Assembly: GCA_910574255.1 (NCBI GenBank)
Contig: CAJTAK010000001.1
Coordinates: 271,779 to 335,778 of the forward strand
From: Clostridia bacterium
Lineage (GTDB): Bacteria; Bacillota; Clostridia; Lachnospirales; Lachnospiraceae
Length of the DNA stretch: 64,000 bases
Reading direction: 5' to 3'
The notes beneath the pieces are model-generated. The model did no database searches and was not told the DNA's origin. It saw only the letters and a program-made list of their open reading frames with translations. Position 1 is the stretch's first letter. Each line of letters begins with the position of its first letter. Both the position numbers and the translations under genes were made by a program. Positions 29,311 through 46,975 of the stretch are shown piece by piece.

Positions 29311-29323
29311 CTGCAACATTTCC

Positions 29324-30616: not shown

Positions 30617-32481
30617 CAAAACAACAGGGATTTTTGCGGAATCTGGCCGGACAGTGCACAATCGTTCTTTTTTTTCCGGCGGCATTTCTTATGCTGGCAT
30701 TTTTGTCGGGAATGGGGCCGAGGACGCATGGGATCAGACATTTGGGTGCGGCGGTGCTTCTTGCGGCAGCAGTTGTTTTTATGCTGTTTTTATGGCTGTT
30801 TTTGCTTGTCAGGGATAAGAGGTCACTGGAGAGTCTAAAAAGCAAAATCAGCAGAGAGCGCTGGCTATATGGGATACTGCTTCTGTCCGGCATTTTAAGA
30901 AGCTTTAGCTTGAATGTTATGCAGCGCTGGGATGCAGGGGAGTATTACTATAGGCTTGGGACAGCCTGCGAGAATTTTGACTTTACATGGGAAGCCTTTT
31001 TGGAGCAGTTTTCTCTGTGCGGACATCCGACTCTGGGATTTGCGCCTATCTATGCCATAGGGGACTATCTGGCGCCGAGAAGAATCTGGGGTATGGAGCT
31101 GATGAATCTGGCACTGACATTGGCTGCCATAGCTTGTATTTATCAGATTCTGAAAAAAATTCTTCCGGAAGCAGGAGACAGGCGTTTGGGATTGTATATC
31201 TTGCTGGTTTCCTTCTGCCCTTTGTTCCTTGGCACCTTTCAGCAGTTTAATCCAGATACGGGAATTGCTTTGTTTGCAATTTTTGTGATCCATAGCTGTA
31301 TCTACAGACAATATCTTCTTTTGTTTTTCTGGAGCTGTGTTGTAGTTCAGACAAAGGAAACGGGTATTGTTATGCAGGCAGGCCTTGTGCTTGGGCTGGT
31401 TTTCTATGACTTTTTTACAGAAAAGAAGGCCTTGAAGGTCAGGATTAAAACCGTGTGGAACAATCCCTGTACCTGGATAACAGGAGCCAGTGTGCTGCTT
31501 CAGCTTGGTTATATGAAGCTGATAGGAGGTCTTACCAAATGGGCCTCTCCGGAACAGCAGCAGTTTCGCTGGGATAGTGACGGAATGAACTGCTTTGGAT
31601 TTCGGGGTGAATATATTTGGACAAAATGGAAGCAGTTTTTCATTTTGAATTTTAACTGGATCTATGTGCTGCTTATTATTCTTGGGATCCTTTTGGTGAT
31701 TTTGGGCAGGAAGTATATACGAAGACTTCCGCAGGGAATGGTTCTTTTGTGGTCTGTGAGCGGCAGCCTGTTTTTATTTTTGAACTTGTATATTACAGGA
31801 GCTTTGGCGCGGTATAATCTTTTCTGTGATTTGGTATTGGCAATTACCGCCATTGCTGTGATAGAGAAAATCTTGCCTGAGAATTTCAGGCATACAACAG
31901 CGGCATTGTGCGCCGGACTTATGCTGCTTCAAAGCTTTTTGACCGTAGATCCCGTAAGCAGGCTGGTATTTCCTCATGTAAAGACTGGAACAGTGGATAT
32001 GCTTTATATGCAGATGCCTTCAGAGGAACTCTATTACGGAGATCCAATAGTTTATAACTATCAATATACATTTATTGATAAGGCGCTGGATTCTATTCTT
32101 GCTGATACTTATCAGGGAGGACGGCTCAACATTGTACATTTTGGGGATACTTATGAGGACGGCGCTCATTTTGGCGGGAATTGGTATCAGGACTGGATTC
32201 CCTACCGGATAAGCTGGGACAAAGAGGCAAAAAAACGAGTTCATTATGAAAATGATGATACCGTCCGTATCAATGTCTTTGGGGAAGAGATGCTGAATGA
32301 AAGCTTTGAGAACGGTACGGCAGTCGGAATAGATACAGGCGTGCTGATTTTTCTGCCGCAGTTTGAATATCCTCAGGAGGAATGCTTGGATAAGCTAAGA
32401 CCCTTCTTTGAAATAGGGGATAAAAAGACCTGGCGATCAATTTGGGGATGTGTGGATTACTATGAGCTGAGTGAAAAATAA
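30613..32481 (+). CDS. GT-C-type polytopic membrane glycosyltransferase
   Basis: The 622-residue protein has about ten membrane spans in residues 1-430 and a soluble C-terminal domain of roughly 170 residues. RWDAGEYYYRLG after an early span (about residues 106-117) supplies the acidic residues expected of GT-C enzymes, and QTKETG appears mid-protein as in GT39/GT83-like transferases. It should use a polyprenyl-linked sugar on the outer face. The exact family is uncertain. It is coupled to the polymerase gene by an ATGA overlap. Confidence 0.7.
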   Translation: MTKQQGFLRNLAGQCTIVLFFPAAFLMLAFLSGMGPRTHGIRHLGAAVLLAAAVVFMLFLWLFLLVRDKRSLESLKSKISRERWLYGILLLSGILRSFSLNVMQRWDAGEYYYRLGTACENFDFTWEAFLEQFSLCGHPTLGFAPIYAIGDYLAPRRIWGMELMNLALTLAAIACIYQILKKILPEAGDRRLGLYILLVSFCPLFLGTFQQFNPDTGIALFAIFVIHSCIYRQYLLLFFWSCVVVQTKETGIVMQAGLVLGLVFYDFFTEKKALKVRIKTVWNNPCTWITGASVLLQLGYMKLIGGLTKWASPEQQQFRWDSDGMNCFGFRGEYIWTKWKQFFILNFNWIYVLLIILGILLVILGRKYIRRLPQGMVLLWSVSGSLFLFLNLYITGALARYNLFCDLVLAITAIAVIEKILPENFRHTTAALCAGLMLLQSFLTVDPVSRLVFPHVKTGTVDMLYMQMPSEELYYGDPIVYNYQYTFIDKALDSILADTYQGGRLNIVHFGDTYEDGAHFGGNWYQDWIPYRISWDKEAKKRVHYENDDTVRINVFGEEMLNESFENGTAVGIDTGVLIFLPQFEYPQEECLDKLRPFFEIGDKKTWRSIWGCVDYYELSEK

Positions 32482-32501
32482 GATTGCTTAATGAGTGTGC
32501 C

Positions 32502-32530
32502 TTGCACAACAAAAGTAAATGTGTTATAGT
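32502..32530 (+). promoter_or_regulatory. Promoter before the GT-C/rfbFGH operon
   Basis: TTGCAC (32502-32507), 17 bases, TATAGT (32525-32530), 38 bases before the start at 32568. It could drive the long run of genes up to 48242. Confidence 0.6.
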
Positions 32531-32567
32531 TCAAAAGAGATATTTGGGATAAGGGTATGTAGGAGCA

Positions 32568-34181
32568 ATGAAGGAAAGCATAGAAGGAATAAAAAGACAA
32601 ATAGATAAAATCAACAGAGAGAAAGCCTGGAGATGGTTTGCAGTTATATGGCTTGCGATTTTTCCTTTTTTGTGTTGTGCGGCTTATTGCCTGAAAACAG
32701 ACAACCTGATCAGTGATCTGTATCTGCCAGCCGGGCTTTGGAACGATGATATTATCTATTATAAGGAAGTGGAAGGCATCGTCCACTATGGGATTCCCCA
32801 GGGGTACTTTGGTTACAGCGATACCCATGCTCTGGTGGGCTCTTTCTCTGTGTGGAGTCCGATGCTGTTGGTACCCTGGAGTATCTGGGGACTGTTTTTT
32901 GGATGGAATTATATGTCGCCCATCTGGTGCAACATCGTTATGATGATGCTGGGTATGGGCTTTTTTGCGTTCCTTGCGAAGCCGAACAAGAAGCAGGTAT
33001 TTTGGCTTTCTGTGTTTTACGCGCTTTTTATCCGTCTGACTCGGTATGCCTTAAGCGCTCATGTGGAATCAACCGTGTATTTTATGGTGATGCTGCTCAT
33101 GGCTCTTGTGTTTTATCTACGAAGAAAGGATGCCAGGCAGAAGCAGGCCCTGATTGCCATGATTGTGATTACCATGGTTCTTACGTGGATGCGTCCTTAT
33201 TATATTATTTTTCTGGCGGTTCCCGGTTATTACCTTGTGAAAAAGAATCGGAAAAACAGCTGGGTGATGGCAGCGGTTACCATTGTAACGGCGGGGGTCT
33301 ATTTTCTTATTTCCAAATACCTCTGTGCGGCTTATCTGGATGGCGGAACTCTTTTTGATACCGAATTTATTACCCGGTTTTTCACCCACGGATTCCTTTC
33401 CGGGGTTAAAAATGTTCTCTATATTCTCCTTGAAGGCTGTGATACTTTTATGAAGTATCTTGGGAGCGCTATTTCCACAGGACACTCTTTTGGGGAAAAT
33501 GCAGGAATTTCTTTTGCTATTGTGTTTGTAGGATTTGTATACAAGCTTGTAATTGCCGTCAGGGAGAAGGATAAAGAGACAACCCTTCGGTATGGATACT
33601 GGACCAGTTTTTTTGTGATTATGTTTCTGGCGATTATCTTTATTTTCCGCATATCCAGCGGACAGAAGCATCTTCTGGGCTTTACGGTGATCGGAATTCT
33701 CCTGCTGGCTATGGATGGGCTGTCGGAGGGAAAGATGTGGATGATTGCCCTCATGTACAGCTATCTGTTCGTGATGATGACACTGGATTCCACCTCCTGG
33801 GACATCCCTTATGATATGGAGGGTGCCGTGCATGCAGAGCTTCAGGCAGGAGAGGAGGTACTTCATAAAGAGATTCAGATAAAAGAAGGAGGGCCGTCCT
33901 ATGACAATACGATTATATGGGTGTTTGATGATGTGGTGAATGAGGAATATGTCTACAGCAGATGGCAGATGCTGTATGCATTGCCTCCCGGAATGGGAAT
34001 CAATATGTGTCTGTTTGATAAAATCGAATCAGATTTCAGCAATATTCAGTCCAAATATATCTTTACCGTGCCCGGAGGCCATACAGAAAAGCATCTGAAA
34101 GAGCTGGGGGCAAGAAAGCTTGTAGAATATGGCGGCTGTGTAATATATGAACGAACTGACGGAAGATACAGGGAAAAGTGA
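32568..34181 (+). CDS. Polytopic membrane protein, probable GT-C glycosyltransferase
   Basis: A 537-residue protein with about ten membrane spans and a C-terminal soluble part from about residue 415. GLWNDDIIYYKEVEGIVHYG follows the first span and carries the paired Asp typical of GT-C transferases; MRPYYIIFLAVPGYYLVKK appears mid-protein. No precise family is recognised. AGGAG is only two bases from ATG 32568, so the true start may be slightly different. It is the first gene of the unit that continues with rfbFGH, which ties it to the dideoxysugar. Confidence 0.68.
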   Translation: MKESIEGIKRQIDKINREKAWRWFAVIWLAIFPFLCCAAYCLKTDNLISDLYLPAGLWNDDIIYYKEVEGIVHYGIPQGYFGYSDTHALVGSFSVWSPMLLVPWSIWGLFFGWNYMSPIWCNIVMMMLGMGFFAFLAKPNKKQVFWLSVFYALFIRLTRYALSAHVESTVYFMVMLLMALVFYLRRKDARQKQALIAMIVITMVLTWMRPYYIIFLAVPGYYLVKKNRKNSWVMAAVTIVTAGVYFLISKYLCAAYLDGGTLFDTEFITRFFTHGFLSGVKNVLYILLEGCDTFMKYLGSAISTGHSFGENAGISFAIVFVGFVYKLVIAVREKDKETTLRYGYWTSFFVIMFLAIIFIFRISSGQKHLLGFTVIGILLLAMDGLSEGKMWMIALMYSYLFVMMTLDSTSWDIPYDMEGAVHAELQAGEEVLHKEIQIKEGGPSYDNTIIWVFDDVVNEEYVYSRWQMLYALPPGMGINMCLFDKIESDFSNIQSKYIFTVPGGHTEKHLKELGARKLVEYGGCVIYERTDGRYREK

Positions 34182-34190
34182 GGAATGCAG

Positions 34191-34970
34191 ATGAAAGCAG
34201 TAATATTGGCCGGAGGATTCGGAACCCGAATCAGCGAGGAGAGCCACCTAAAACCAAAGCCCATGATAGAGATCGGAGGAAAACCCATTCTCTGGCATAT
34301 TATGAAGGGCTACTCTCATTATGGAATTCATGATTTTATTATCTGCTGCGGCTATAAGCAGCATGTGATAAAGGAGTGGTTTGCGGATTATTATCTCCAT
34401 AACAGTGATGTGACCTTTGATTTTACTCAAAAGAATGAGATGACCGTGCATAATAATGTGGCGGAGCCCTGGCGGGTTACCCTTGTAGATACGGGGCTGA
34501 ATACCATGACAGGCGGAAGAGTGAAGCGCGTACAGCCCTATATTGGGGAGGAATCCTTCTTTTTGACCTATGGAGACGGGGTGGCGGATGTAAATATCCC
34601 CAAGCTGCTTGCATTTCACCGCAGCCATGGAAGGATTGCAACCCTTACGACTGTGACTCTGGATCAGAGATTCGGCGTTCTGGAGGTGGAGGATGACGGG
34701 AGAATCGGCTCCTTCCGGGAGAAGGCGGAACAGGACGGAGGACGGATTAACGGCGGCTTCATGGTATTGGAGCCGGCCATCTTTGACTATTTAGAGGGGG
34801 ATGAGACTGTCTTTGAGCAGAAGCCTCTGCAGACCTTAGTGGAAGAGGGACAGCTTATGGCTTATCGGCATAACGGCTTCTGGCAGTGTATGGATACAGC
34901 CAGGGAAAAGGAAAAGCTAGAGAAGCTGTGGGCTTTGGGAAAAGCCCCCTGGAAGATCTGGGAGGCTTAA
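34191..34970 (+). CDS. rfbF: Glucose-1-phosphate cytidylyltransferase
   Basis: The 259-residue nucleotidyltransferase has MKAVILAGGFGTRISEESHLKPKPM at the N-terminus, then KPMIEIGGKPILWHIMK, LTYGDGVADV and GGRINGGFMVLEP, the pattern of the RfbF/DdhA group. It makes CDP-glucose from glucose-1-phosphate and CTP. ATG 34191 is preferred over 34185 because GAGGA is six bases before it. It is the first step of CDP-3,6-dideoxysugar synthesis and is followed by rfbG and rfbH. Confidence 0.94.
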   Translation: MKAVILAGGFGTRISEESHLKPKPMIEIGGKPILWHIMKGYSHYGIHDFIICCGYKQHVIKEWFADYYLHNSDVTFDFTQKNEMTVHNNVAEPWRVTLVDTGLNTMTGGRVKRVQPYIGEESFFLTYGDGVADVNIPKLLAFHRSHGRIATLTTVTLDQRFGVLEVEDDGRIGSFREKAEQDGGRINGGFMVLEPAIFDYLEGDETVFEQKPLQTLVEEGQLMAYRHNGFWQCMDTAREKEKLEKLWALGKAPWKIWEA

Positions 34971-35030
34971 AGAAATACTCTGGAAGAGAGGAATATTCAT
35001 AGAGAAGAGGTTAAAAGGAGAGGTATATTG

Positions 35031-36113
35031 ATGGAACAGGAGAATTGGCTGCAGTCAAATTTTTATAAGGGAAAGCGGGTGCTGGTGACCGGTCATACGG
35101 GATTTAAGGGCACCTGGCTATGCAGAATTCTTTTACAATTAGGTGCTCAGGTCACCGGCTATGCTTTAATGCCCCCCCCATTTTTGTCCCTGTTTGAAAT
35201 TTCAGCAGTGTCGGATAAGATAAATTCCATAGAGGGAGATGTGAGAGATTTTGCCCGCTTAAAAGAAGTGTTTGAACAGGTTCAGCCGGAGATCGTGTTT
35301 CATTTGGCCGCTCAGCCGCTGGTAAGGCGTTCCTATGAAGCTCCGGTGGAGACTTATGAGACGAATGTAATGGGGACCGTACATGTCTGTGAATGTGTGC
35401 GGCTTTTTCCCTGTGTAAAGTCTTTTTTGAATGTGACAACGGATAAGGTCTACGAGAATAAGGAGTGGGCTTGGGGATACAGGGAGAATGAGCCGCTTGA
35501 CGGATACGATCCTTATTCCAACAGCAAGTCCTGTTCGGAGCTGGTGACCCACAGCTATATCAATTCTTTTTTCAGGGATATGGATACGGCTGTTTCCACC
35601 GCACGGGCCGGAAACGTAATCGGCGGCGGAGACTTTGCGGACAATCGGATTATTCCGGATTGTATACGGGCGGCGGGTAAGAAAGAGCCGGTTGTCATTC
35701 GGAATCCCCATTCCACCAGACCCTATCAACATGTGCTGGAGCCCCTGTTTGTATATCTGACTATTGCGGCTATGCAGGCAATGGATAAGAGATATGCAGG
35801 CTTTTACAATGTGGGGCCGGATGATCGGGACTGTGTGTCTACCGGAGAATTGGCGGATTTGTTCTGTGAGAGCTGGGGAGAGGGCATGAGCTGGGTAAAC
35901 CGGTATGACGGAGGTCCCCATGAGGCGAACTTCTTAAAGCTTGACTGCTCGAAGCTGAAAGCCGTCTTTGGCTGGAAGCCTGTATGGGATGTCCGTACAG
36001 CTGTGGAAAAAACGGTGGAATGGTCAAAGGCATGGATGAATGGCAATGATATGGAGCTTATTATGGAAAAACAGATTTTGGAATATAGAGATGAGAGAGA
36101 AAAGGAGTACTAG
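35031..36113 (+). CDS. rfbG: CDP-glucose 4,6-dehydratase
   Basis: The 360-residue extended SDR has VTGHTGFKGTWL near residue 18-29, TTDKVYENKE with the catalytic Thr-Asp-Lys type arrangement and YDPYSNSKSCSE holding the Tyr-Lys pair. RPYQHVLEPL is typical of RfbG/DdhB. It converts CDP-glucose to CDP-4-keto-6-deoxyglucose. ATG 35031 follows AAAGGAGAGG at about 8 bases; a TTG three bases earlier is the alternative. Two bases separate it from rfbH. Confidence 0.94.
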   Translation: MEQENWLQSNFYKGKRVLVTGHTGFKGTWLCRILLQLGAQVTGYALMPPPFLSLFEISAVSDKINSIEGDVRDFARLKEVFEQVQPEIVFHLAAQPLVRRSYEAPVETYETNVMGTVHVCECVRLFPCVKSFLNVTTDKVYENKEWAWGYRENEPLDGYDPYSNSKSCSELVTHSYINSFFRDMDTAVSTARAGNVIGGGDFADNRIIPDCIRAAGKKEPVVIRNPHSTRPYQHVLEPLFVYLTIAAMQAMDKRYAGFYNVGPDDRDCVSTGELADLFCESWGEGMSWVNRYDGGPHEANFLKLDCSKLKAVFGWKPVWDVRTAVEKTVEWSKAWMNGNDMELIMEKQILEYRDEREKEY

Positions 36114-36115
36114 AG

Positions 36116-37459
36116 ATGTTTGAGGATAAAACAGAGCAGCAGGCCAGGGAGGAGATTCTCACAGCAGTTAAAGCTTATTGTGATACTTTCCATAATAAGA
36201 AAGAGCCATTTATGGAGGGACAGCGGATTCCTTATGCTTCCCGGGTATATGATAACAGAGAAATGACAAATCTGGTAGACAGTGCATTGGAATTTTGGCT
36301 GACTTCCGGACGTTACACAGACGAGTTTGAGAAAAAATTAGGTGAATATCTGGGTGTACGTCATTGCTGTCTGGTGAATTCCGGGTCATCTGCTAATTTG
36401 AATGCATTTATGGCCCTTACCTCACCCTTACTAAAAGAGCGTCAGGTAAAACGGGGAGATGAGATTATTACAGTGGCAGCGGGCTTCCCAACTACCATTG
36501 CGCCAATGATCCAGTATGGGGCGGTCCCTGTTTTTGTAGATGTGACGATTCCCCAGTATAATATTGATGTAACAAAGCTGGAAGAGGCATATTCTGAAAA
36601 AACAAAGGCAGTGATGCTGGCTCATACCCTGGGCAACCCCTTTGACTTGAAAGCGGTAAAGGAGTTCTGTGAACGCCATAATCTGTGGCTGATTGAGGAT
36701 AACTGCGACGCTTTGGGTTCCAGATATGTGATTGATGGAGAAGAGAAATTTACAGGAACCATTGGAGATATCGGAACCTCAAGCTTTTATCCGCCCCACC
36801 ATATGACTATGGGGGAGGGAGGCGCTGTTTACACAGATAATCCCCTGCTCTATAAGATTATTAAATCTTTTCGTGACTGGGGCAGGGACTGCGTATGTCC
36901 CTCCGGACGCGACAACATGTGCGGCCATCGGTTTGACCGCCAGTATGGAGAGCTGCCCTTGGGATACGATCATAAGTATGTATACTCCCATTTTGGCTAT
37001 AATCTGAAGGCTACCGATATGCAGGCGGCCATCGGCTGCGCTCAGCTTGACAAGTTTCCGGGATTTGTAGAGCGCAGGCGCAAAAATTTTGAACGGCTTA
37101 GAAACGGCCTTAACGGTATGGAGGATAAGCTGATTTTGCCAGAGCCCTGTGAAAACAGCAGGCCAAGCTGGTTCGGCTTTTTGCTGACCTGCAAGGAGGG
37201 CGTGAACCGGGAACAGGTGGTTCCTTATATCGAGAGCAAGGGAGTTCAGACCCGGATGCTGTTTGCGGGGAATATCATTAAGCATCCCTGCTTTGATGAA
37301 ATGCGTGCAAAGAACAGCGGCTATCGGGTAGTTGGAGAGCTTCAAAACACGGATCGGATCATGCGGGATACCTTCTGGGTAGGCGTTTATCCGGGAATGA
37401 CGGATGAAATGATTGATTATATGGCAAAGACCATCAGGGAAGCAGTGTCAGATGAGTGA
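36116..37459 (+). CDS. rfbH: CDP-6-deoxy-4-keto-glucose 3-dehydratase (E1, RfbH)
   Basis: A 447-residue aspartate-aminotransferase-fold protein. The usual PLP lysine is replaced by His in SFYPPHHMTMGEGG, the hallmark of the PMP-dependent E1 dehydratases, and CVCPSGRDNMC gives the C-X-C-X7-C set that holds the [2Fe-2S] cluster. It removes the 3-OH, giving CDP-4-keto-3,6-dideoxyglucose with a reductase partner (E3), which I did not find in the window. The 3' end overlaps gtrA by eight bases. Confidence 0.95.
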   Translation: MFEDKTEQQAREEILTAVKAYCDTFHNKKEPFMEGQRIPYASRVYDNREMTNLVDSALEFWLTSGRYTDEFEKKLGEYLGVRHCCLVNSGSSANLNAFMALTSPLLKERQVKRGDEIITVAAGFPTTIAPMIQYGAVPVFVDVTIPQYNIDVTKLEEAYSEKTKAVMLAHTLGNPFDLKAVKEFCERHNLWLIEDNCDALGSRYVIDGEEKFTGTIGDIGTSSFYPPHHMTMGEGGAVYTDNPLLYKIIKSFRDWGRDCVCPSGRDNMCGHRFDRQYGELPLGYDHKYVYSHFGYNLKATDMQAAIGCAQLDKFPGFVERRRKNFERLRNGLNGMEDKLILPEPCENSRPSWFGFLLTCKEGVNREQVVPYIESKGVQTRMLFAGNIIKHPCFDEMRAKNSGYRVVGELQNTDRIMRDTFWVGVYPGMTDEMIDYMAKTIREAVSDE

Positions 37460-37880
37460 TAAGAAGAAAATGTGGTTTCAGCCATTGATTCAGTTTATTA
37501 AATTCGGCATTGTGGGATTATCCAATACCTTAATCTCTTATGTAGTGTATCTTATGGGAGTGCGGTTTGGAATGCATTACCTGCTTGCAAGTGTTTTGGG
37601 TTTTGTGATCAGTGTGCTGAATTCCTTTTACTGGAATAATAAATATGTTTTTCAGCAGGGCGACGAGGAAAGAAATCTTTGGCTGACTCTGGTAAAGACA
37701 TTTATGGCTTACGCATCCACAGGACTGGTCCTGGCAAATATTCTATTGTATATCTGGGTAGATGTATTGAATATATCCGAATATCTGGGGCCGGTTATTA
37801 ATCTGGTGATTACCGTACCTTTGAATTTTGTGATTAATAAACTATGGGCTTTCCGTGGGAAGCGTAAAGGTGGAGCTTGA
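37452..37880 (+). CDS. gtrA: GtrA-family membrane protein, candidate lipid-sugar flippase
   Basis: The 142-residue protein has four membrane spans and the GtrA (PF04138) pattern: QFIKFGIVGLSNTLISYVVY near the start, SVLNSFYWNNKYVF mid-way and NFVINKLWAFR at the end. GtrA proteins are believed to flip undecaprenyl-phosphate sugars used by outside transferases. ATG 37452 lies within the end of rfbH. Its place between dideoxysugar synthesis and the branched-sugar genes suggests it handles that sugar together with the GT2 at 44091. Confidence 0.88.
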   Translation: MSDKKKMWFQPLIQFIKFGIVGLSNTLISYVVYLMGVRFGMHYLLASVLGFVISVLNSFYWNNKYVFQQGDEERNLWLTLVKTFMAYASTGLVLANILLYIWVDVLNISEYLGPVINLVITVPLNFVINKLWAFRGKRKGGA

Positions 37881-37886
37881 GAGAAA

Positions 37887-39497
37887 ATGATGAGAAATAT
37901 AGAATTGTTAGACTGCACCCTCAGGGATGGAGGCTATCTAAATGACTGGGAGTTTGGCCATGATAATCTGGTAAATATTTTCGAGCGTCTGGTCAGCGCA
38001 GAAGCAGACATTATCGAGGTCGGATTTTTGGATGAGAGAAGAGACTTTGATCCGAATCGGAGCATTATGCCAGATACGGCCTCTGTGGAAAAGATTTATG
38101 GGGGCCTTGATCGGGGCAGCTCCATGGTTGTGGGAATGATTGATTATGGTACTTGTGGAATTTCTCAAATTCAGCCCTGCAAGGAAAGCTTTCTGGATGG
38201 AATCCGGGTGATTTTTAAGAAGCACCTGCGCCGGGAGGCCATTGCTTTCTGCAAAGAATTAAAGGCTTTGGGATACCAGGTTTTTTCCCAGGCGGTTTCC
38301 ATTACAAGCTATACGGACGAAGAGTTTGCAGATTTATTGGATTTGGTGAATGATTTGGAGCCTTTTGCCATGTCCCTGGTAGATACTTATGGACTTTTAT
38401 ATGAAAAGGGGCTTTTGCATTATTTTAAGCAGGCGGATAAGATGCTGAAAAAGGGAATTGGCTTGGGGTATCATGCCCACAATAATTTTCAGCTTGGCTA
38501 CGCTAATTGTATCTCCGTGCTGGCGCAGGAGACAAACCGCAAGGTGATTGTAGACGGAACCCTTTATGGAATGGGAAAGAGTGCAGGCAATGCGCCTCTG
38601 GAGCTTTTAGCTACTTATCTCAATGAAAACTTTGGGAAAGATTATAAGATCAGCCAGATGCTGGAAGCTATTGATGTAACGATTCTGGACATTTATAAGA
38701 AAATGCATTGGGGTTATTCTTTTACCTTTTTCCTTTCAGCCTCCAATGCATGTCATCCCAATTATGTCACTTACCTGCAGAATAAGAAAAAACTGTCTAT
38801 TAAGTCTATCAATGAGATCTTGAGCAGTATTGCAGAAGAAAAGAAGCTCATGTATGACGGCGGATATATTGAAGACCTGTATCGGGAATATCAGAAAAAG
38901 GATTGTGATGATCGAAAAGCCAGAGAGGAATTGTACAGGCAGTTGAAGGACCGCAAAATTCTGCTGATTGGTCCGGGAAAAAGTATTCGAACTCAAAAGG
39001 ACAGAATCGAAAAATGTATCAGGGAAAAACAGCCTCTGGTAATATCCATTAATTTTATACCAGATGATCTTTCCTGTGATTATGTATTTATGAGTAATGC
39101 CAAGCGGTATGTGCAGATGTCTACCATGCTCAGCAATCGGGCTTCTCATATTAAGACAATTGCTACATCCAATGTGACCTCTACCAAGACTTTTGACTAT
39201 GTACTGCGGTATCAGGACTTGTTGGATGAGGAGGCTTTGATTGCAGATAATCCTATGCTGATGCTTTTGAAGCTTTTGAGAGAATATAGAGCAGGGGAGA
39301 TTTATCTGGCAGGCTTTGACGGCTATTCCGTGATGGAAGAGCCGAATTATATTAATCCGAATATGGAATATTCCTATAGCACAGAGGTGGCGCAGGATAT
39401 TAATCAGGATGTGATCATCAGTATGAAGAAGCTGGAGCTTGAGATGCCAGTGGTATTTGTGACAGACTCTTACTATGAAAGATCCTTTTCTGCATAG
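37887..39497 (+). CDS. HMGL/DmpG-like aldolase fused to a C-terminal domain of unknown function
   Basis: The 536-residue protein has an N-terminal TIM-barrel aldolase (about 1-290) with LLDCTLRDGGYLNDW at residues 7-21, VDTYGLLYEKGL and the metal site YHAHNNFQLGYAN near 195-207, as in 4-hydroxy-2-oxovalerate aldolases. A domain from about 350 to 536 begins with KILLIGPGKSIRTQ and has YVFMSNAKRY and EIYLAGFDGY, a Rossmann-like layout resembling MptE/DUF115-type proteins. It could cleave or form a C-C bond with pyruvate or a 2-oxo acid. The sugar-locus role is unknown. Six bases separate it from gtrA. Confidence 0.8.
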   Translation: MMRNIELLDCTLRDGGYLNDWEFGHDNLVNIFERLVSAEADIIEVGFLDERRDFDPNRSIMPDTASVEKIYGGLDRGSSMVVGMIDYGTCGISQIQPCKESFLDGIRVIFKKHLRREAIAFCKELKALGYQVFSQAVSITSYTDEEFADLLDLVNDLEPFAMSLVDTYGLLYEKGLLHYFKQADKMLKKGIGLGYHAHNNFQLGYANCISVLAQETNRKVIVDGTLYGMGKSAGNAPLELLATYLNENFGKDYKISQMLEAIDVTILDIYKKMHWGYSFTFFLSASNACHPNYVTYLQNKKKLSIKSINEILSSIAEEKKLMYDGGYIEDLYREYQKKDCDDRKAREELYRQLKDRKILLIGPGKSIRTQKDRIEKCIREKQPLVISINFIPDDLSCDYVFMSNAKRYVQMSTMLSNRASHIKTIATSNVTSTKTFDYVLRYQDLLDEEALIADNPMLMLLKLLREYRAGEIYLAGFDGYSVMEEPNYINPNMEYSYSTEVAQDINQDVIISMKKLELEMPVVFVTDSYYERSFSA

Positions 39498-39585
39498 CAG
39501 AAAACTAAGTTTAGGGATGCATGTGGGTTTACTATAAAGTATAAAACGATTGTGATGTGAGAAAAGAAGAGGGGGAAACGTAAAT

Positions 39586-40251
39586 ATGCGGAAAGCATTG
39601 ATAACAGGAGGATCCAGAGGAATCGGCAAAGCTACGGCGGAAAAGTTCCGAAGCTGCGGCTACGAAGTGGTTACTCCTACCAGACAGGAATTGAATCTGA
39701 CAGATGGAGCATCTATTGCCGCTTATATTGAGAAAAATAAGGATGTCTATTTTGATGTGATTGTAAACAATGCAGGCTGCAATGATATCCATGAGATTGA
39801 GGACATTACGGATGAAGAGATTGAACAGATGATGGCCTTAAATCTTGTAGCCCCTATTAAGCTGATTCGGGGATTTGCAGGCAAAATGAAAGAAAACAAT
39901 TATGGCAGAATCGTGAATATCGGTTCTATCTGGGCAGTAGTCTCAAAGCCTGGCCGCTGTGTTTACAGTGCCACAAAAAATGGAATTCATGGGGTAACTA
40001 ACACTATGGCAGTGGAACTTGCACCCTATAATATTTTAGTAAATACTGTCTGCCCGGGATTTACCATGACAGAGCTGACGAAGAAGAATAATACGCCGGA
40101 ACAGATAGCCGAGATTTCAAAGGACATTCCTATGCAGAGAATGGCCGAGCCCTGTGAGATGGCCGAGGTGATCTATTTCCTATGCAGTGAGCAGAATACC
40201 TATTTGACCGGTCAGAAGATTACGGTGGATGGAGGATTTTCGGAAAAATGA
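39586..40251 (+). CDS. Short-chain dehydrogenase/reductase
   Basis: The 221-residue classical SDR has TGGSRGIGKATAEKF at residues 6-20, NNAG near 62, NIGSIWA with the catalytic Ser and YSATKNG with Tyr and Lys near 126-131; LTGQKITVDGGF closes the protein as in FabG-like enzymes. It reduces or oxidises a hydroxyl with NAD(P). GAGGGGGAAA precedes the ATG. It shares a four-base overlap with the dehydroquinate-synthase-like gene, so the two probably act in one pathway. Confidence 0.88.
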   Translation: MRKALITGGSRGIGKATAEKFRSCGYEVVTPTRQELNLTDGASIAAYIEKNKDVYFDVIVNNAGCNDIHEIEDITDEEIEQMMALNLVAPIKLIRGFAGKMKENNYGRIVNIGSIWAVVSKPGRCVYSATKNGIHGVTNTMAVELAPYNILVNTVCPGFTMTELTKKNNTPEQIAEISKDIPMQRMAEPCEMAEVIYFLCSEQNTYLTGQKITVDGGFSEK

Positions 40252-41312
40252 TTATTAAATCAAGCACAAAAGACTACAGAGTTCAGATTGAGGACAGCTT
40301 TTCTTTTTTTGAGCCATTGCTTCAGACAGATAATACTCTGTTTGTGGTTGACAAAAAGCTGTATGGTTTGTATGAGAAAGAGCTGTTCGGCAAAATTCCA
40401 GAGGATAAATTGTATTTGATTGAGGCGCTGGAGGAAAATAAAACCATTGAGACGGCTCTTGGAGTCTGTGAAAAGATGACAGAGATCCCCGGCAAGCGCA
40501 ATGCTCGTCTGGTTTCCTTTGGAGGGGGAATTATTCAGGATATCACAGGCTTTGCAGCGAATATTCTCTATCGGGGGATTCATTGGACTTTTGTTCCAAC
40601 CACGCTTTTGGCGGCCTGCGACAGTTGTATCGGAGGAAAAACTTCCCTTAATTACAAATCTTTTAAGAACCTCTTAGGAACCTTTTATCCGCCGGAGAAG
40701 ATCTATATTTGTCCGAAATTCTTTTTCACTTTGTCCCAGAAAGATTTTGAAAGCGGCCTGGGAGAGGTTGTAAAGTTCAATATTATGTCCGGTGAGGCAG
40801 GTCTTGAGCGGATAGAGTCTCAGATGGCAGGCCTTTTAGAGAGAAGACCGGAAGTAGTAGAAGAATTTCTCCGAACCTCTCTTGCTTTTAAAAAGGACTT
40901 TATTGAGGAGGATGAGTTTGATCGGGGAGTTCGGATTCATCTGAATTTTGCCCATACCTTTGGACATGCCTTTGAGACTATGAGCAAATATGAGATTCCT
41001 CATGGGACGGCTGTTGCCATGGGAATGATTGTGGCGGATCGGGTATCGCTTCACCGGGGCTGCATGGATGAAACGATTTGTACCCGGGCGGAACAGCTTT
41101 TGAAAAAGATCATTCATGTAAACCTGGATGGAATCGATTGGAACATGGATGAAGTGGTGAAAGCTATCCGCAAGGATAAAAAGCAGATTGATGATGCATT
41201 GACCTGTGTACTTTTGGAAGAAGATATGAAGCTTAAGGTAGTGCATGATCTGAAACGGGAAGAGATAGAGACGGCTGTGAGAGAGATGCTGCAGTTATTG
41301 CGTACAAAGTGA
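40248..41312 (+). CDS. 3-dehydroquinate synthase family cyclase
   Basis: The 354-residue protein has DSCIGGKTSLNYKSFKNLLGTF near residue 124-145, GLGEVVKF near 171 (metal Glu), RIHLNFAHTFGHAFE near 228-242 (Arg and metal His) and PHGTAVAMGM near 251 (metal His). All metal ligands and most substrate residues of dehydroquinate synthase are kept, so an NAD-dependent carbocycle-forming reaction is expected. Being in a sugar cassette without other aromatic-pathway genes, it is probably a specialised sugar-phosphate cyclase rather than housekeeping AroB. The true substrate is unknown. Confidence 0.85.
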   Translation: MIIKSSTKDYRVQIEDSFSFFEPLLQTDNTLFVVDKKLYGLYEKELFGKIPEDKLYLIEALEENKTIETALGVCEKMTEIPGKRNARLVSFGGGIIQDITGFAANILYRGIHWTFVPTTLLAACDSCIGGKTSLNYKSFKNLLGTFYPPEKIYICPKFFFTLSQKDFESGLGEVVKFNIMSGEAGLERIESQMAGLLERRPEVVEEFLRTSLAFKKDFIEEDEFDRGVRIHLNFAHTFGHAFETMSKYEIPHGTAVAMGMIVADRVSLHRGCMDETICTRAEQLLKKIIHVNLDGIDWNMDEVVKAIRKDKKQIDDALTCVLLEEDMKLKVVHDLKREEIETAVREMLQLLRTK

Positions 41313-41326
41313 GAGGAGAACACAAA

Positions 41327-43126
41327 GTGAAAGTTAAGTTATCAGAGTATGTGGCGGATTTTCTGGTAAAGAGTAAGATAGAGCATGTATTTACTCTTAC
41401 AGGTGGAGGTGCCATGCATCTGAATGATTCTTTTGGCCATAAGAAAGAGCTTGCCTGCATCTACAATCATCATGAGCAGGCATGCGCTATCGGTGCAGAG
41501 GCATATACCAGACTGACAGGAAAGCTGGCGGCTGTGTGTGTGACAAGCGGTCCGGGAGGAACCAATGCAATAACTGGCGTTTTGGGCGGATGGCTGGATT
41601 CCATTCCTATGTTTGTGATCTCTGGTCAGGTAAAGAGAGAGACCACCACTTGGTCTACAACCGTTCCTTTACGACAGTTGGGAGATCAGGAGTATAACAT
41701 TGTTGCCTCAGTTGCTCCTATGACCAAGTATGCTCATATGGTAACAGAGCCAACAGAGATTCGGTATCATTTGGAGAAAGCGCTACATTTGTGTAAAAAT
41801 GGAAGAGGCGGTCCCGTATGGCTGGATATTCCCCTGGATGTGCAGGCGGCGCCTATAGAGACAGAAGAGCTGAAAGGATTTGATCCCTCCGAATTGGAAC
41901 AGCCAGAGGTACCGGTGTATGATGAGAGTCTTACAGAGCAGATTCTAAACAAGATCAAAGAGGCAAAGAAGCCAGTTGTATTTGCAGGCTCCGGAATCCG
42001 TCTGGGTAAGGCTCATGCAGAATTTCTGGCGGTGATTGAAAAGCTTAACATTCCTGTTGTGACAGCCTGGAATGCGCATGACAATCTCTGGGATGAGCAT
42101 CCCCTTTACTGCGGACGGCCGGGAACTCTTGGAACAAGGGGAGGAAATTTCGTGGTACAGAACAGTGATCTGCTTCTGGTTCTGGGCTGCCGACTGAATA
42201 TTCGGCAAATCAGCTACAATTATAAGGAATTTGCGCCGAATGCTTATAAGATTATCATAGATATCGATGAAAATGAGCTTAAGAAGCCGACTGTGAAAGC
42301 GGATCTTCCGGTTCATGCAGATGTAAAGGCGGTTCTGGAGGCTATCTTAAAAGCCGATTATCACAGGGAAAATGAGGAACATCAGAGATGGCTGGCGTGG
42401 TGCCGCCAGACAGACGCAAAATATCCGGCAGTTTTGCCAGGGTATCGTGCTCAGCAGTCGCCCTTGAATCCCTATGCATTTGTGGAGGAGTTGTCCAAGG
42501 TTATGGAGGAAGAAGATACAATTATCACCGGAAACGGAAGCGCCTGTGTAGTCACGTTCCAGGCAATGAAAATTAAGAAAGGACAGCGGTTGTTTACCAA
42601 TTCCGGCTGTGCGGCTATGGGGTATGGATTTCCGGCAGCTATCGGAGGCTGTGTGGCACGAGGCGGAAAGCGTGTCATCTGCATTGATGGGGACGGAAGC
42701 TTCCAGATGAATCTTCAGGAGCTGCAGACGGTGGTATATAACCGGCTGAATCTGAAGCTGCTTTATCTGAATAATAACGGGTATCATTCCATTCGTCAGA
42801 CACAGACGAATCTGTTCAAGCTGCCTTTGGTAGGCGTCTGTGACGGAAACGGTCTTAGCTTTCCGGAGGCAGAAAAGATAGCCGGGGCGTATGGGATTCC
42901 TTTTTACCGTATAGACAAACTGGACGAAGCAGAGGCAATATTGCGCAGGGCATTGACCACGGAGGGGCCTGTGTTCTGTGAGATTGTCTTGGATCCGGGA
43001 CAGAATTTTGAGCCAAAGCTTTCCTCAAAGGTATTGCCAGACGGACGGATTGTGTCACCACCGATTGATGATATGTATCCTTTCCTGGAGCGGGAGGAAT
43101 ATGAGTCTAATCATTATGATTCATAG
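41327..43126 (+). CDS. Thiamine-diphosphate enzyme of the acetolactate synthase fold, YerE-like
   Basis: The 599-residue protein has all three ThDP-enzyme domains: the activating Glu in YNHHEQACAIGAEAYTR (about residue 50), a central domain and GDGSFQMNLQELQTVVYNRLNLKLLYLNNN (453-482) for metal and ThDP binding. Next to rfbFGH it is best compared with Yersinia YerE, which adds a two-carbon unit from pyruvate to CDP-4-keto-3,6-dideoxyglucose. GTG 41327 is chosen because AGAGGAG lies 8 bases before it; GTG 41309 is the alternative. Another 2-oxo acid donor or a carbocyclic acceptor cannot be excluded. Confidence 0.85.
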   Translation: MKVKLSEYVADFLVKSKIEHVFTLTGGGAMHLNDSFGHKKELACIYNHHEQACAIGAEAYTRLTGKLAAVCVTSGPGGTNAITGVLGGWLDSIPMFVISGQVKRETTTWSTTVPLRQLGDQEYNIVASVAPMTKYAHMVTEPTEIRYHLEKALHLCKNGRGGPVWLDIPLDVQAAPIETEELKGFDPSELEQPEVPVYDESLTEQILNKIKEAKKPVVFAGSGIRLGKAHAEFLAVIEKLNIPVVTAWNAHDNLWDEHPLYCGRPGTLGTRGGNFVVQNSDLLLVLGCRLNIRQISYNYKEFAPNAYKIIIDIDENELKKPTVKADLPVHADVKAVLEAILKADYHRENEEHQRWLAWCRQTDAKYPAVLPGYRAQQSPLNPYAFVEELSKVMEEEDTIITGNGSACVVTFQAMKIKKGQRLFTNSGCAAMGYGFPAAIGGCVARGGKRVICIDGDGSFQMNLQELQTVVYNRLNLKLLYLNNNGYHSIRQTQTNLFKLPLVGVCDGNGLSFPEAEKIAGAYGIPFYRIDKLDEAEAILRRALTTEGPVFCEIVLDPGQNFEPKLSSKVLPDGRIVSPPIDDMYPFLEREEYESNHYDS

Positions 43127-43170
43127 CTGCCAGTTCAAAAGATATTTTTTATAATTTGGTAGGGAGTTTT

Positions 43171-44094
43171 ATGAAAACAGTTGTCATTACAGGCCCGACA
43201 GGTGCCATTGGAACCGCATTGATGGGAAATTTTATAGAAAAGGGGATTCATGTATATGCAGTAGTGCGCAAGGACTCCAGCCGTCTTGAACGGATTCCGG
43301 AAAGCCCGCTGATAACGCCGGTGCTTTTGGGCCTGGATGAGCTGCAGGGGCTTAAAAATCAGATTCCGGTAAGCTGTGATGTTTTTTATCATTTTGCATG
43401 GGCCGGAACTATTGGTGACGGAAGAAATGATGTTTATCTCCAGAATCAAAATGTGAAGTATACACTGGATGCTGTCAGGGCTGCGGCAGAGCTTGGCTGT
43501 AAAAGATTTGTGGGAGCCGGCTCTCAGGCGGAATATGGGCGCACAGAGGGGCTTTTAAGTCCGGATACGCCGGCATTTCCGGAAAACGGTTATGGAATGG
43601 CAAAACTCTGCGCCGGACATATGAGTCGTTTGCTCTGTGAACAGCTTGGAATAGAACATGTCTGGGGAAGAATCTTAAGCGTTTATGGTCCTCGTGACGG
43701 TGCAAAGACAATGATTATGTCTGCCATAGACAGTTTTTTGAGAGACCGATGTCCAAGGTTTACAAAAGGGGAACAGCTGTGGGATTACCTTTACTCAAAG
43801 GATGCTGCGCAAGCTATGTATCTTTTAGGGGAAAAGGGAGTGAATGGGAAGGTCTACTGTCTGGGAAGCGGTCATGCCAGACCATTGGCGGAATATATTA
43901 CAATTTTGAGGAATTCTATTGATTCTGCCCTTAAGATGGAGCTTGGAGCCGTTCCCTATAGTCCGAAGCAGGTGATGTATCTTTGTGCGGATATTAAGAC
44001 TTTGAGAGAAGACACAGGCTTTGAGCCGGAATATTCCTTTGAGCAGGGAATCAAGGAGACAATTGCCTGGTATCGGGAGGAAATGGGAAAATGA
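43171..44094 (+). CDS. NAD-dependent epimerase/reductase, abequose synthase- or YerF-like
   Basis: The 307-residue extended SDR has MKTVVITGPTGAIGTALM at the N-terminus, VGAGSQAEYG with the catalytic Ser-like position and ENGYGMAKLCAG with the Tyr-Lys pair. It resembles the last-step reductases of CDP-3,6-dideoxyhexose synthesis. It would reduce the keto group left by the earlier enzymes and give the final CDP-sugar. ATG 43171 follows AGGGAG at four bases; a TTG at 43156 is unlikely. It overlaps the GT2 gene by four bases. Confidence 0.83.
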   Translation: MKTVVITGPTGAIGTALMGNFIEKGIHVYAVVRKDSSRLERIPESPLITPVLLGLDELQGLKNQIPVSCDVFYHFAWAGTIGDGRNDVYLQNQNVKYTLDAVRAAAELGCKRFVGAGSQAEYGRTEGLLSPDTPAFPENGYGMAKLCAGHMSRLLCEQLGIEHVWGRILSVYGPRDGAKTMIMSAIDSFLRDRCPRFTKGEQLWDYLYSKDAAQAMYLLGEKGVNGKVYCLGSGHARPLAEYITILRNSIDSALKMELGAVPYSPKQVMYLCADIKTLREDTGFEPEYSFEQGIKETIAWYREEMGK

Positions 44095-45023
44095 AAAAAA
44101 TCAGTGTTTTGATTCCCTGTTATAATGAGGAAGAAAATGTAGTTCCCATCAGCAAGGCGGCGACGGATATTCTGGAGAAAGAACTGCCGGAGTATGATTA
44201 TGAGCTGGTTTTCATTGATAATTATTCCACAGATCGTACAAGGGACCTGCTTCGTATGATATGCAGTCAAAATCCGAAGATCAAGGCTATTTTCAACGTG
44301 ACGAATTTTGGGCAGTTTAATTCGCCTTACTATGGAATCTGCCAGACTACAGGGGACTGTACCATTGCCATGTCCTGCGATTTTCAGGATCCAGTGGAAC
44401 TGATTCCTGTGTTTGTCCATGAATGGGAGAATGGGTATAAGATTGTCAGTGGAATCAAAAGTTCCAGCAAGGAGAATGGATTTATCTATTTCCTCCGCAG
44501 CATGTACTATAAAGTGATTAAAAATATGTCCTCGGTGGAGATGATTGAACATTTTACAGGTTTTGGGCTTTATGATAAAACCTTTGTAAAGCTTCTGCAG
44601 CAATTGGATGACCCGATTCCTTTTATTCGGGGAGTTGTGGCGGAGTACGGCTATAAGCGCAAGGATGTGGAGTATGAACAGCCCAAGCGGAGGGCAGGGA
44701 AGACTCATAACAACTGGTACAGTCTTTATGATGCGGCTATGCTGAGCTTTACTTCTTATACGAAAATTGGCCTGCGGCTGGCCACCTTTGCAGGGTTCCT
44801 GGGTTCGGCATTCAGTATTCTGGTGGCATTGGTTTATCTGGTGATGAAGCTGATCTGGTGGGAGCGGTTTCCGGCGGGTATGATACCAGTACTCATCGGC
44901 ATTTTTGTGATTGGATCCATGCAGCTTTTCTTTATTGGCTTGTTGGGAGAATATATTATGAATATTAATACACGTGTGATGCATAAACCTCTTGTTGTGG
45001 AGGAAGAAAGGATTAACTTTTGA
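44091..45023 (+). CDS. GtrB/DPM1-like glycosyltransferase family 2 with C-terminal membrane spans
   Basis: The 310-residue protein has an N-terminal GT-A domain (KKISVLIPCYNEEENVVP, FIDNYSTDRTRDLLR, MSCDFQDP as the DxD-type site) and two membrane spans near residues 230-255 and 268-292. That is the layout of GtrB and dolichol-phosphate mannose synthase relatives, which attach a sugar to undecaprenyl phosphate. Together with GtrA at 37452 and the GT-C proteins that follow it suggests a lipid-linked branch-sugar system. It overlaps genes on both sides by four bases. Confidence 0.88.
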   Translation: MKKISVLIPCYNEEENVVPISKAATDILEKELPEYDYELVFIDNYSTDRTRDLLRMICSQNPKIKAIFNVTNFGQFNSPYYGICQTTGDCTIAMSCDFQDPVELIPVFVHEWENGYKIVSGIKSSSKENGFIYFLRSMYYKVIKNMSSVEMIEHFTGFGLYDKTFVKLLQQLDDPIPFIRGVVAEYGYKRKDVEYEQPKRRAGKTHNNWYSLYDAAMLSFTSYTKIGLRLATFAGFLGSAFSILVALVYLVMKLIWWERFPAGMIPVLIGIFVIGSMQLFFIGLLGEYIMNINTRVMHKPLVVEEERINF

Positions 45024-46975
45024 AGATGAAGAACGAGACGATTAACGGAACCTGGATATCAGGTTCTGCCGCAATGATTTTTGCAGGAATAGAACTGCTG
45101 CTGTTTCTGTTTGTTCCTGGAGTACGGGAATGGTTTCAAAAATTCAGCAATGAAAATATGGTGTTTTATGCTGTCTTTTTGATGACCTTTGCAATTGTGT
45201 TCTTAGGGGCAAATTGCTTTTTGTATAAAAGAGAATTTTCAATAAATATATCCCTACCGGTCCAATGGGGCCTGCTTTTGTTGGGATTGGCGGCGGGAAT
45301 CGGGTTTTTGATGAAGATGATTATGAATGAGGGAAGAGTTTTAGGAGTATTGATTACAGATTTTGTCTGGCATAGGATCCCTTATATACTTAGCTTTCTA
45401 ACCGTACTTGGAATTGCGTTTGTCTTGCTGTGGTGCTGGAGACAGGATGAAAAGAAGGAAAAAGGACATATTTTTTATGTGATTGATGTAATAATTGCAG
45501 CTGCGTCCGGATTTTCCTTGTATATTCCGAATTATTTGGCGGCAGATCCGCTGCATGGACACGCCTATTATAGCTCTATCTATGATGTGGCGCACGGTAC
45601 GCCTTATGATGATTTGTTCACCAGTATCTACGGACATTATGCAATATTTCTCCGGTGGCCTGTAAAGATAATAGGAAACGGAAATATCAAGGATGCGGCA
45701 TTACTGATGGCGCTTTTAGGTGGTTTGGCTACATTTTTGGCATTGTGGGCGCTTCATCAGAATATCCGGGATAATAAAGTACGTATCCTGGCGGCATTAT
45801 CGATTGGATTTCCGGTGATTGGTACACGTTTAAACAATTATTGGCAGGTACAGCCTCACCGGGTATTATTTACTTGTATCTTTTTGTTTTATGGAGCAGT
45901 GTACAATAAGTATAAATTTAAGGGTGCAAAGATTTTTGGATATGTTTTAGCAACCTTAGCAATTGTTTGGAACACGGAGACAGGGTTAGTTTGTGCCGCA
46001 GCCTGGGTGGCTTTCCTTTGCTATGAATATACAAATGAAAAGGATTTTTTTAGAGGAAAGACGTTATTATTTTTGTTGATTCAGGTTTTAGCTGCTGTTG
46101 CCGCTTTTTTTGGGGCAGTAGTATTTGTGGGAATTTACAATTTAATTCATGGAGGAAGTTGGAATTCCCTTTCTACATTTTTGTATCCTCTTCTGACAAA
46201 AGAGTATATGGATGGCTTTTTGCGGATTGATCTTCCGAATTTTATCAGTGCATATATGCTTGTGCTGGCATTGTTCCTAATGGGAATGGTGTGGAGCCTG
46301 GCACATCACAGAATTTTTCGGAGAGAACAGGCAGTGAAGAGGGAAGCGGACAGGGCTTTTGTTTTTCTTGCTTCAGTATTGGGATTGGGGCAAATTACCT
46401 ATTTTATGAATCGGGCAGTATATTATAATTTGGATTTGATTCATGTAGTAGTCGTGGTTTTGCTGTGCATATTTTTGGATCACAATATTTTTGCCTGGAA
46501 AGAATTTAGGAAAAACGGATTTCAGGGAGTGGGAATGAAGAATGGATTCCGAGGAGTAATGGTTGTATGGATGACCGTGATTTTAGTAGGTACATCCTTA
46601 GGAACGATTATGCAGGGCGGTTATCATATATGCTTGAGAGGAGAACGGGAGTATCAGGATTTAAGTAAAGTCTATGAGCTTTTAGATGAGATCAAAAAAG
46701 ATGTCCCAATCAATACATTTGGCTTTGGACAAGGGGTTCCGGAGTTGTATGGATTGATGGAATGGGATACGAGATGCCATGTAATTGATTTTTCGGATAG
46801 AACAGAGCAGCAGCTTCAATATGTCAGAGAGAGATTGGAAAATGAGGATTCCTTTTTTGCATATATTCAGGATGCTGAATTTATTCTGGAGGAACAGCAG
46901 GGGATTTGGCACAGATATAAGTCTTATGAATATGCGGGCGATGAATATGGAGCCTTTTTGAGAGTGAGTTATTAA
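45020..46975 (+). CDS. Large polytopic membrane protein, probable GT-C glycosyltransferase
   Basis: The 651-residue protein has about thirteen membrane spans. An outside loop with AADPLHGHAYYSSIYDVAHG and FTSIYGHYAIFLRWP lies near residues 170-210, and NTETGLVCAAAW mid-protein recalls the ETG pattern of other GT-C proteins of this locus. A soluble tail runs from about residue 545. TTG 45020 has AAAGGA seven bases upstream and overlaps the previous stop; ATG 45026 is the alternative. No named family is recognised. Coupling to the GtrB-like gene suggests it transfers the lipid-linked sugar outside the membrane. Confidence 0.68.
   Translation: MKMKNETINGTWISGSAAMIFAGIELLLFLFVPGVREWFQKFSNENMVFYAVFLMTFAIVFLGANCFLYKREFSINISLPVQWGLLLLGLAAGIGFLMKMIMNEGRVLGVLITDFVWHRIPYILSFLTVLGIAFVLLWCWRQDEKKEKGHIFYVIDVIIAAASGFSLYIPNYLAADPLHGHAYYSSIYDVAHGTPYDDLFTSIYGHYAIFLRWPVKIIGNGNIKDAALLMALLGGLATFLALWALHQNIRDNKVRILAALSIGFPVIGTRLNNYWQVQPHRVLFTCIFLFYGAVYNKYKFKGAKIFGYVLATLAIVWNTETGLVCAAAWVAFLCYEYTNEKDFFRGKTLLFLLIQVLAAVAAFFGAVVFVGIYNLIHGGSWNSLSTFLYPLLTKEYMDGFLRIDLPNFISAYMLVLALFLMGMVWSLAHHRIFRREQAVKREADRAFVFLASVLGLGQITYFMNRAVYYNLDLIHVVVVVLLCIFLDHNIFAWKEFRKNGFQGVGMKNGFRGVMVVWMTVILVGTSLGTIMQGGYHICLRGEREYQDLSKVYELLDEIKKDVPINTFGFGQGVPELYGLMEWDTRCHVIDFSDRTEQQLQYVRERLENEDSFFAYIQDAEFILEEQQGIWHRYKSYEYAGDEYGAFLRVSY

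Follow-up and report, generated by a model that had tools for sequence, protein, structure and literature searches.

Yersiniose A of Yersinia pseudotuberculosis is made with rfbFGH-equivalent genes, a thiamin diphosphate (ThDP)-dependent branching enzyme, YerE, and a reductase, YerF; we know of no aldolase, short-chain dehydrogenase/reductase (SDR) or dehydroquinate synthase (DHQS)-like gene in that pathway. For ErwE, the ThDP enzyme of the erwiniose branch in Pectobacterium atrosepticum, the natural donor is presumably 4-hydroxy-2-oxovalerate, as derived from the erwiniose structure. Pyruvate is the donor in yersiniose A formation, whereas ErwE adds hydroxy-functionalised 2-oxo acids to CDP-4-keto-3,6-dideoxyglucose and accepts 4-hydroxy-2-oxo acids, not pyruvate (PMC12247030). 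A similar donor preference has been described for MMAR_2332, the YerE-like ThDP enzyme of the caryophyllose maker Mycobacterium marinum (PMC12247030), which uses long hydroxylated donors (PMC12247030, PMC5706390). Caryophyllose, found in the lipooligosaccharide of that organism, is 3,6-dideoxy-4-C-(D-altro-1,3,4,5-tetrahydroxyhexyl)-D-xylo-hexose (PMC5706390). In the parts of these sources consulted, the making of such long branched sugars is described only at the ThDP step, and no DHQS-like or SDR step is described for the ErwE system (PMC12247030). The present locus comes from a different kind of host, a Clostridia bacterium of the family Lachnospiraceae (contig CAJTAK010000001.1, positions 271,779 to 335,778). 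In this stretch of 64,000 nucleotides, called the window below, there is a cassette of ten genes, rfbF through a family 2 glycosyltransferase (GT2) gene, that joins the rfbFGH and ThDP genes to an aldolase fusion, an SDR and a DHQS-like enzyme. The cassette appears to encode a variation on the known YerE/ErwE type of branched-sugar pathway; at its hypothetical core is a DHQS homologue that would leave the ring open. The chances are about even that its genes form a single pathway to a sugar of the erwiniose or caryophyllose kind, a CDP-activated 3,6-dideoxyhexose that bears a long side chain as its 4-C branch.

A search of the open-access literature, which leaves key subscription papers outside it, found no paper on a pathway with this exact gene set. 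Bradyrhizose was considered as a model and set aside; PMC4743980 names a dTDP-glucose 4,6-dehydratase, and the words aldolase and dehydroquinate are absent from its main text.

The cassette is part of a run of plus-strand genes with small gaps or overlaps (about 29270-48242 of the window). An earlier reading, made from the sequence alone, had named eight genes at 34191-44094, and all eight are found there as open, closely spaced plus-strand frames of the families it gave (Table 1). Two more genes, absent from that reading, complete the conserved unit: one for GtrA, within the run, and one for a DPMS-like GT2, at its end. From rfbF to GT2 the genes are each 84-95% identical to those of a locus from the same genus (L001; L numbers denote loci and G numbers genomes). 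Identity falls to 49% at the following gene, so the conserved unit is placed at about 34191-45023.

RfbF, RfbG and RfbH all exceed equivalog cut-offs in profile searches, within one operon. The signature of E1, the RfbH activity, is a histidine replacing the lysine that binds pyridoxal phosphate (PLP), together with four Fe-S cysteines. Both parts are present, as the sequence-only reading had noticed from the histidine and the C-X-C-X7-C motif. His228 of RfbH aligns with the histidine of Yersinia E1, at what we take to be the PLP-lysine position of the DegT family, and Cys197, 259, 261 and 269 form the pattern C-X61-C-X-C-X7-C. The best solved relative of the protein is 3bcx (519 bits).

The best solved relative of the ThDP enzyme is 8rph (410 bits), followed by an acetolactate synthase at 248 bits. 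From a CDG motif described in PMC12247030, 8rph is inferred to be JanthE. Annotation of the gene as acetolactate synthase was rejected, since the equivalog gives 361 bits against a cut-off of 538 and 8rph is the better match. A yersiniose A pathway would have no dedicated 2-oxo-acid synthase; the window has the aldolase fusion in the operon. Neighbourhoods were taken around all 43 RfbH places listed in a search of the phylum of the Treponema genome G041, plus the remaining DHQS-like loci, and neighbour genes were named by similarity and family searches. A full ThDP homologue occurs in 21 of the 43 RfbH stretches. The synthase next to it varies. The HMGL aldolase fusion is beside the ThDP gene in the window, L001, L002, L004, L031, L036, L038, L040, L112 and L039 (in the last, a contig end leaves only its C-terminal part). 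Other HMGL aldolases are found in L095 and L110 (by Pfam) and in L096, L100, L102 and L103 (by similarity), an acylating acetaldehyde dehydrogenase and 4-hydroxy-2-oxovalerate aldolase pair (DmpF and DmpG, both over cut-offs) in L105, an HpcH/HpaI aldolase in L032 and L033, and NeuB in L034 (Pfam) and L080 (similarity). A NeuB-like gene is also seen in two loci that lack a full ThDP gene, L077 and L035. The HMGL, DmpG, HpcH/HpaI and NeuB families all include makers of 4-hydroxy 2-oxo acids, although HMGL and HpcH members carry out other reactions too.

In a tree of 29 ThDP enzymes, a 100/100 branch divides the 21 with a synthase gene from the 8 with none. A synthase outside the fetched stretch would be missed, and five of the 21 (L095, L096, L100, L102 and L103) are near-copies. 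Twelve of the 21 are the window or were found through the DHQS-like gene, and the other nine and all eight synthase-free rows come from the RfbH search. The tree left out L003 (the same place as L036) and L035 (a fragmented locus with no full ThDP gene), and YerE was not included. The swapped synthases, the split in the tree and the preferences of ErwE and MMAR_2332 suggest that in the ThDP clade of the window the neighbouring synthase probably makes the donor, a longer 2-oxo acid. MygE is described as accepting C3 to C8 acids, benzaldehyde being the partner (PMC12247030). A product beyond yersiniose, as the sequence-only reading expected, is supported by the aldolase fusion in the operon and by the position of the ThDP enzyme on the synthase-linked side.

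Other arrangements were seen among the RfbH loci. In L076, L079, L083 and L042, transketolase-type half genes replace the YerE-like gene in rfbFGH loci, and in L094 they stand beside it; they are perhaps another sugar-branching route. Between the ThDP and reductase genes of L110 (4500-6648) lie genes for a short cytidylyltransferase-like protein and for one of 494 residues that has a phosphoribosyltransferase-like domain.

The DHQS-like gene is rare. Among 41 near relatives, two carry a protein that passes the TIGR04425 cut-off. At E 1e-95 or better it is found in 4 of 397 genomes of the window's family (2 over the cut-off), in 1 of 348 genomes of the window's phylum (its own genome alone) and in 6 of 247 genomes of the G041 phylum (3 over the cut-off). 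Altogether 13 genomes carry it, 8 over the cut-off and 5 below it at this E value. Constant separation of the aldolase-SDR-cyclase-ThDP set from CDP-sugar genes, which would refute the joint pathway of the sequence-only reading, was not found: RfbH is over its cut-off in 10 of the 13. In the G041 phylum RfbH occurs in 39 of all 247 genomes but in 5 of the 6 that have the DHQS-like gene (Fisher p 4e-4; p 0.002 without G041, the chosen centre of that sample). In the window's family the figures are 3 of 4 against 134 of 397, which is not significant (p 0.11; 0.26 without the window's own genome, G000). For both samples pooled, p is 1e-4 (0.0015 without G041 and G000). RfbH is not always beside the cassette; it is on another contig in G043, G1002 and G245 and about 29 kb off in G953. 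The link in the G041 phylum and the swapped synthases around a ThDP core support one joint pathway.

The DHQS-like enzyme belongs to the fold family of AroB and the sugar phosphate cyclases (DOIS, EEVS). It shares with AroB 12 of 13 catalytic positions, which we take to be the AroB active site, and has Asp for Glu260 at the remaining one. The three metal-ligand positions are kept, in agreement with the sequence-only reading. Among 14 DHQS-like proteins, Asp for Glu260 is the commonest change (11 of 14), His at H271 is kept in 13 (L031 has Asn), and Lys and Arg at K250 and R264, presumably the carboxylate-binding residues, are kept in all. The enzyme differs from AroB in forming a separate clade, in its place within a nucleotide-sugar operon and in its product, which would be open-chain. 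In a tree of 31 rows with several long branches, which included 10 of the 13 AroB loci (L011, L009 and L016 were left out), one branch (95/90) parts the 14 cassette-type proteins from the other 17 rows. A stray housekeeping aroB was rejected as an explanation of the gene; an AroB is encoded separately, on another contig of the genome, and the window protein reaches only 267 bits against the AroB equivalog cut-off of 305 and falls in the separate clade.

The SDR and DHQS-like genes overlap in 8 of 10 adjacent pairs (in L004 depending on the start codon picked), with gaps of 29 bases in L039 and 306 bases in L035. Two relatives indicate what the pair may do. In L112 the order is rfbFGH, ThDP, aldolase, HAD, reductase, GtrA and GT2, and a HAD phosphatase sits where the window has SDR-DHQS, which suggests a phosphate-disposal role for the pair. 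In the ThDP tree L112 stands next to the group of the window, but the branch (88/72) is not firm. In L030, from genome G237, SDR-DHQS is followed by one opposite-strand open reading frame and then by a gene for a KdsB homologue that scores 160 bits, against a TIGR00466 cut-off of 155. CMP-Kdo synthetase (KdsB) requires the anomeric centre of a free, uncyclised ulosonate, and the neighbouring homologue therefore points to an uncyclised DHQS product. SDR-DHQS can serve a pathway without RfbH, as G237 shows.

The cluster in L030 (8640-12692) consists of GmhA-like isomerase, SDR, DHQS-like and KdsB-like genes, with no RfbH in the genome and no ThDP match in the stretch. It perhaps makes a CMP-activated deoxyheptulosonate.

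The aldolase fusion has an HMGL-type barrel, like DmpG, and presumably carries out a pyruvate aldol reaction as that enzyme does. It lacks the DmpG communication domain, no DmpF gene is found in the cassette, and the C-terminal domain is sialyltransferase-like. The last 202 residues have no Pfam match; this domain (about residues 335-536; window 38889-39497) has a fold like that of MAF, the CstII sialyltransferase and MptE. Identification as DmpG itself was rejected (TIGR03217 59.4 bits against a cut-off of 286; no match to the PF07836 communication domain). A Leisingera protein that matches the fusion in length and build, with 22% identity over 510 residues, adjoins KdsB- and HAD-family genes, and this suggests that the aldolase product is a ulosonate.

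The genes can be arranged into a single route. RfbF, RfbG and RfbH would, by family membership, supply CDP-4-keto-3,6-dideoxyglucose. The HMGL aldolase would join pyruvate and a sugar-phosphate aldehyde, most likely D-erythrose 4-phosphate, to a 3-deoxy-2-ulosonate phosphate that is a stereoisomer of 3-deoxy-D-arabino-heptulosonate 7-phosphate (DAHP). The DHQS-like enzyme would oxidise, eliminate phosphate and reduce in the manner of AroB, with no ring closure, and the SDR would take the open-chain 3,7-dideoxy-2,6-diulosonate and reduce C6 before the ring closes. An open-chain diulosonate of the 3,7-dideoxy type occurs as an intermediate when archaea make dehydroquinate. Judging from its clade and from ErwE and MMAR_2332, the ThDP enzyme would decarboxylate the 2-oxo acid and place the six-carbon acyl unit on C4 of the CDP-4-keto sugar. 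The terminal reductase may then reduce the side-chain ketone, by analogy with YerF, and GT2 and GtrA would probably pass the lipid-linked sugar to membrane glycosyltransferases.

A seven-carbon donor that loses CO2 would leave six carbons on the hexose. The product would be a C12 sugar with a 1,3,4,5-tetrahydroxyhexyl branch whose terminal methyl is at the former phosphate site. This matches the constitution of caryophyllose, which fits a heptulosonate donor minus its terminal oxygen. By our own derivation, the last two side-chain centres have the configuration expected from D-erythrose 4-phosphate; the adjoining first centre has the reverse of the DAHP configuration, which would explain a dedicated aldolase. 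The parts of the route differ in strength. Formation of the CDP-4-keto sugar and its coupling by the ThDP enzyme to an aldolase-made donor are very probable. Tailoring of that donor by the DHQS-like enzyme and the SDR without ring closure is possible, at somewhat less than an even chance. The fuller version is more tentative: the DHQS homologue removes the phosphate without ring closure, the SDR catches the intermediate, and the ThDP enzyme couples 3,7-dideoxyheptulosonate to CDP-4-keto-3,6-dideoxyglucose. That the product is caryophyllose itself is less likely still.

A carbocycle in the product, as the sequence-only reading had suggested, is not borne out. Ring closure on the heptulosonate would destroy the 2-oxo acid that a ThDP enzyme of the synthase-linked clade needs, and the CMP-Kdo-synthetase homologue near SDR-DHQS in L030, a context that needs an uncyclised acid, is at odds with it as well. 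A carbocycle could still arise later, if the ThDP enzyme coupled the phosphorylated ulosonate, the DHQS-like enzyme closed a cyclohexane on the side chain of the CDP-sugar and the SDR reduced the ring ketone. The conserved AroB residues and a family name that says cyclising are in keeping with this, and no sequence feature forbids ring closure. However, closure would consume the side-chain ketone, yet a terminal reductase is found in the window variant and the HAD variant alike, and the presumed carboxylate-binding residues are retained even though no carboxylate would be left; late cyclisation is judged quite unlikely. The DHQS-like enzyme and SDR might instead act upstream of the aldolase, turning sedoheptulose 7-phosphate, a hexose 6-phosphate or the product of an FGGY kinase into its aldehyde. 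FGGY kinase genes in L034 and L040 and the GmhA-like isomerase in L030 point to such a sugar-phosphate supply, but K250 and R264 in all 14 proteins suggest an acid substrate, if their presumed roles are right, and an upstream role is held to be unlikely. Least probable is that two independent products share the operon by chance, one a yersiniose-type sugar made from pyruvate, the other a carbocyclic or ulosonic acid. SDR-DHQS does occur without RfbH in G237, so the pair can serve other pathways, and the RfbH link is not significant in the window's family. Against two products, aldolases stay with this ThDP clade in DHQS-free loci, where unrelated synthases can replace them, and the ThDP enzymes of synthase-free loci sit across the 100/100 branch.

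Several observations weigh against the single route with an open-chain donor. The TIGR04425 family is named 'AroB-related putative sugar phosphate phospholyase (cyclizing)'; the name includes ring closure, and putative is its own word. The AroB catalytic residues are kept in the DHQS-like enzyme, with no change that would forbid closure. Three genomes with the gene, G925, G044 and G237, lack RfbH. Paired SDR genes are absent from L031, L036 and L038 (the L038 stretch soon ends at a contig end), and in L031 (9895-10947) the protein has Asn for one metal-ligand His among seemingly intact neighbours. L036 carries the DHQS-like gene together with a KdsC-type phosphatase, which is unlike simple replacement. 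FGGY kinases, which may or may not belong to the route, occur in L034 and L040, and the GmhA-like isomerase of L030 fits a heptose phosphate equally. No E3 reductase partner for E1 is found in the cassette; the window's own genome gives three matches of 27-28% identity, the best at E 6e-8.

The cassette and its swapped relatives offer a testable donor-side gene set, a 2-oxo-acid synthase together with a candidate for phosphate removal, be it a phosphatase or a DHQS-SDR pair. If ring closure is indeed avoided, the sugar phosphate cyclase superfamily would gain a new kind of outcome and a shikimate enzyme family a second use, and a Clostridia-type bacterium would hold the complete donor-side gene set for a caryophyllose-type sugar. 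Genes in glycan loci that are labelled '3-dehydroquinate synthase' may then have the wrong name. Enzymes for making tertiary alcohols with long functionalised donors can also be drawn from the ThDP clade.

Table 1. Genes of the cassette and the two that follow it, with positions in the window and the family matches that support each name
Feature	Position	Strand	Evidence
rfbF, glucose-1-phosphate cytidylyltransferase	34191-34970 (frame open from 34185)	+	TIGR02623 equivalog 407.6 bits (cut-off 300), match from residue 3
rfbG, CDP-glucose 4,6-dehydratase	35028-36113	+	TIGR02622 equivalog 434.5 bits (cut-off 278)
rfbH/E1, CDP-6-deoxy-4-hexulose 3-dehydrase, Fe-S cysteines and His228	36116-37459	+	NF011936 733.8 bits (cut-off 423)
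GtrA-type membrane protein, probable lipid-linked-sugar flippase	37413-37880 (listed TTG start overlaps rfbH)	+	PF04138 86.4 bits
Aldolase fusion, HMGL-type barrel and C-terminal domain	37887-39497	+	PF00682 at residues 5-247
SDR, FabG-like classical short-chain reductase	39586-40251 (last 4 bases overlap DHQS-like gene)	+	PF13561/PF00106
DHQS-like enzyme, proposed heptulosonate-phosphate phospholyase	40248-41312	+	TIGR04425 439 bits (cut-off 400)
YerE/ErwE-like ThDP carboligase	41309-43126	+	Best solved relative 8rph, 410 bits
Terminal extended-SDR reductase, proposed side-chain ketone reducer	43156-44094	+	PF01370 116 bits; 2pk3 68 bits
GT2, DPMS/ArnC/PgfS type, proposed sugar transfer to undecaprenyl phosphate	44091-45023	+	PF00535; NF047588 PgfS 166 bits, below cut-off 500
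Two large membrane proteins, probable lipid-sugar-dependent glycosyltransferases	45020-48242	+	45020-46975 no Pfam match; 47004-48242 GT87

The GT2 protein is 95% identical in L001 and has homologues of 46-66% identity in L002, L004, L032, L033, L039, L040 and L112; none so close is found within the fetched stretches of L031, L034, L036 and L038. The large membrane proteins that follow vary between relatives, the first (45020-46975) being the one that is 49% identical in L001. GtrA, GT2 and these membrane proteins, one of them GT87, suggest that a lipid-phosphate-linked sugar is used outside the membrane.

Elsewhere in the window there is a second group of glycan genes (18969-27867), with group 1 and 2 glycosyltransferases, a GT11-type protein (a second one is below the cut-off), a hexapeptide transferase, an ABC transporter and a Bac_transf priming transferase. 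The region 4943-11202 contains a VanG-like D-Ala-D-Ser ligase (8027-9076; NF000091 554 bits, cut-off 495) and, in the same-strand group of genes around it, a VanT-like membrane protein (6191-7276; 251 bits, below the cut-off).

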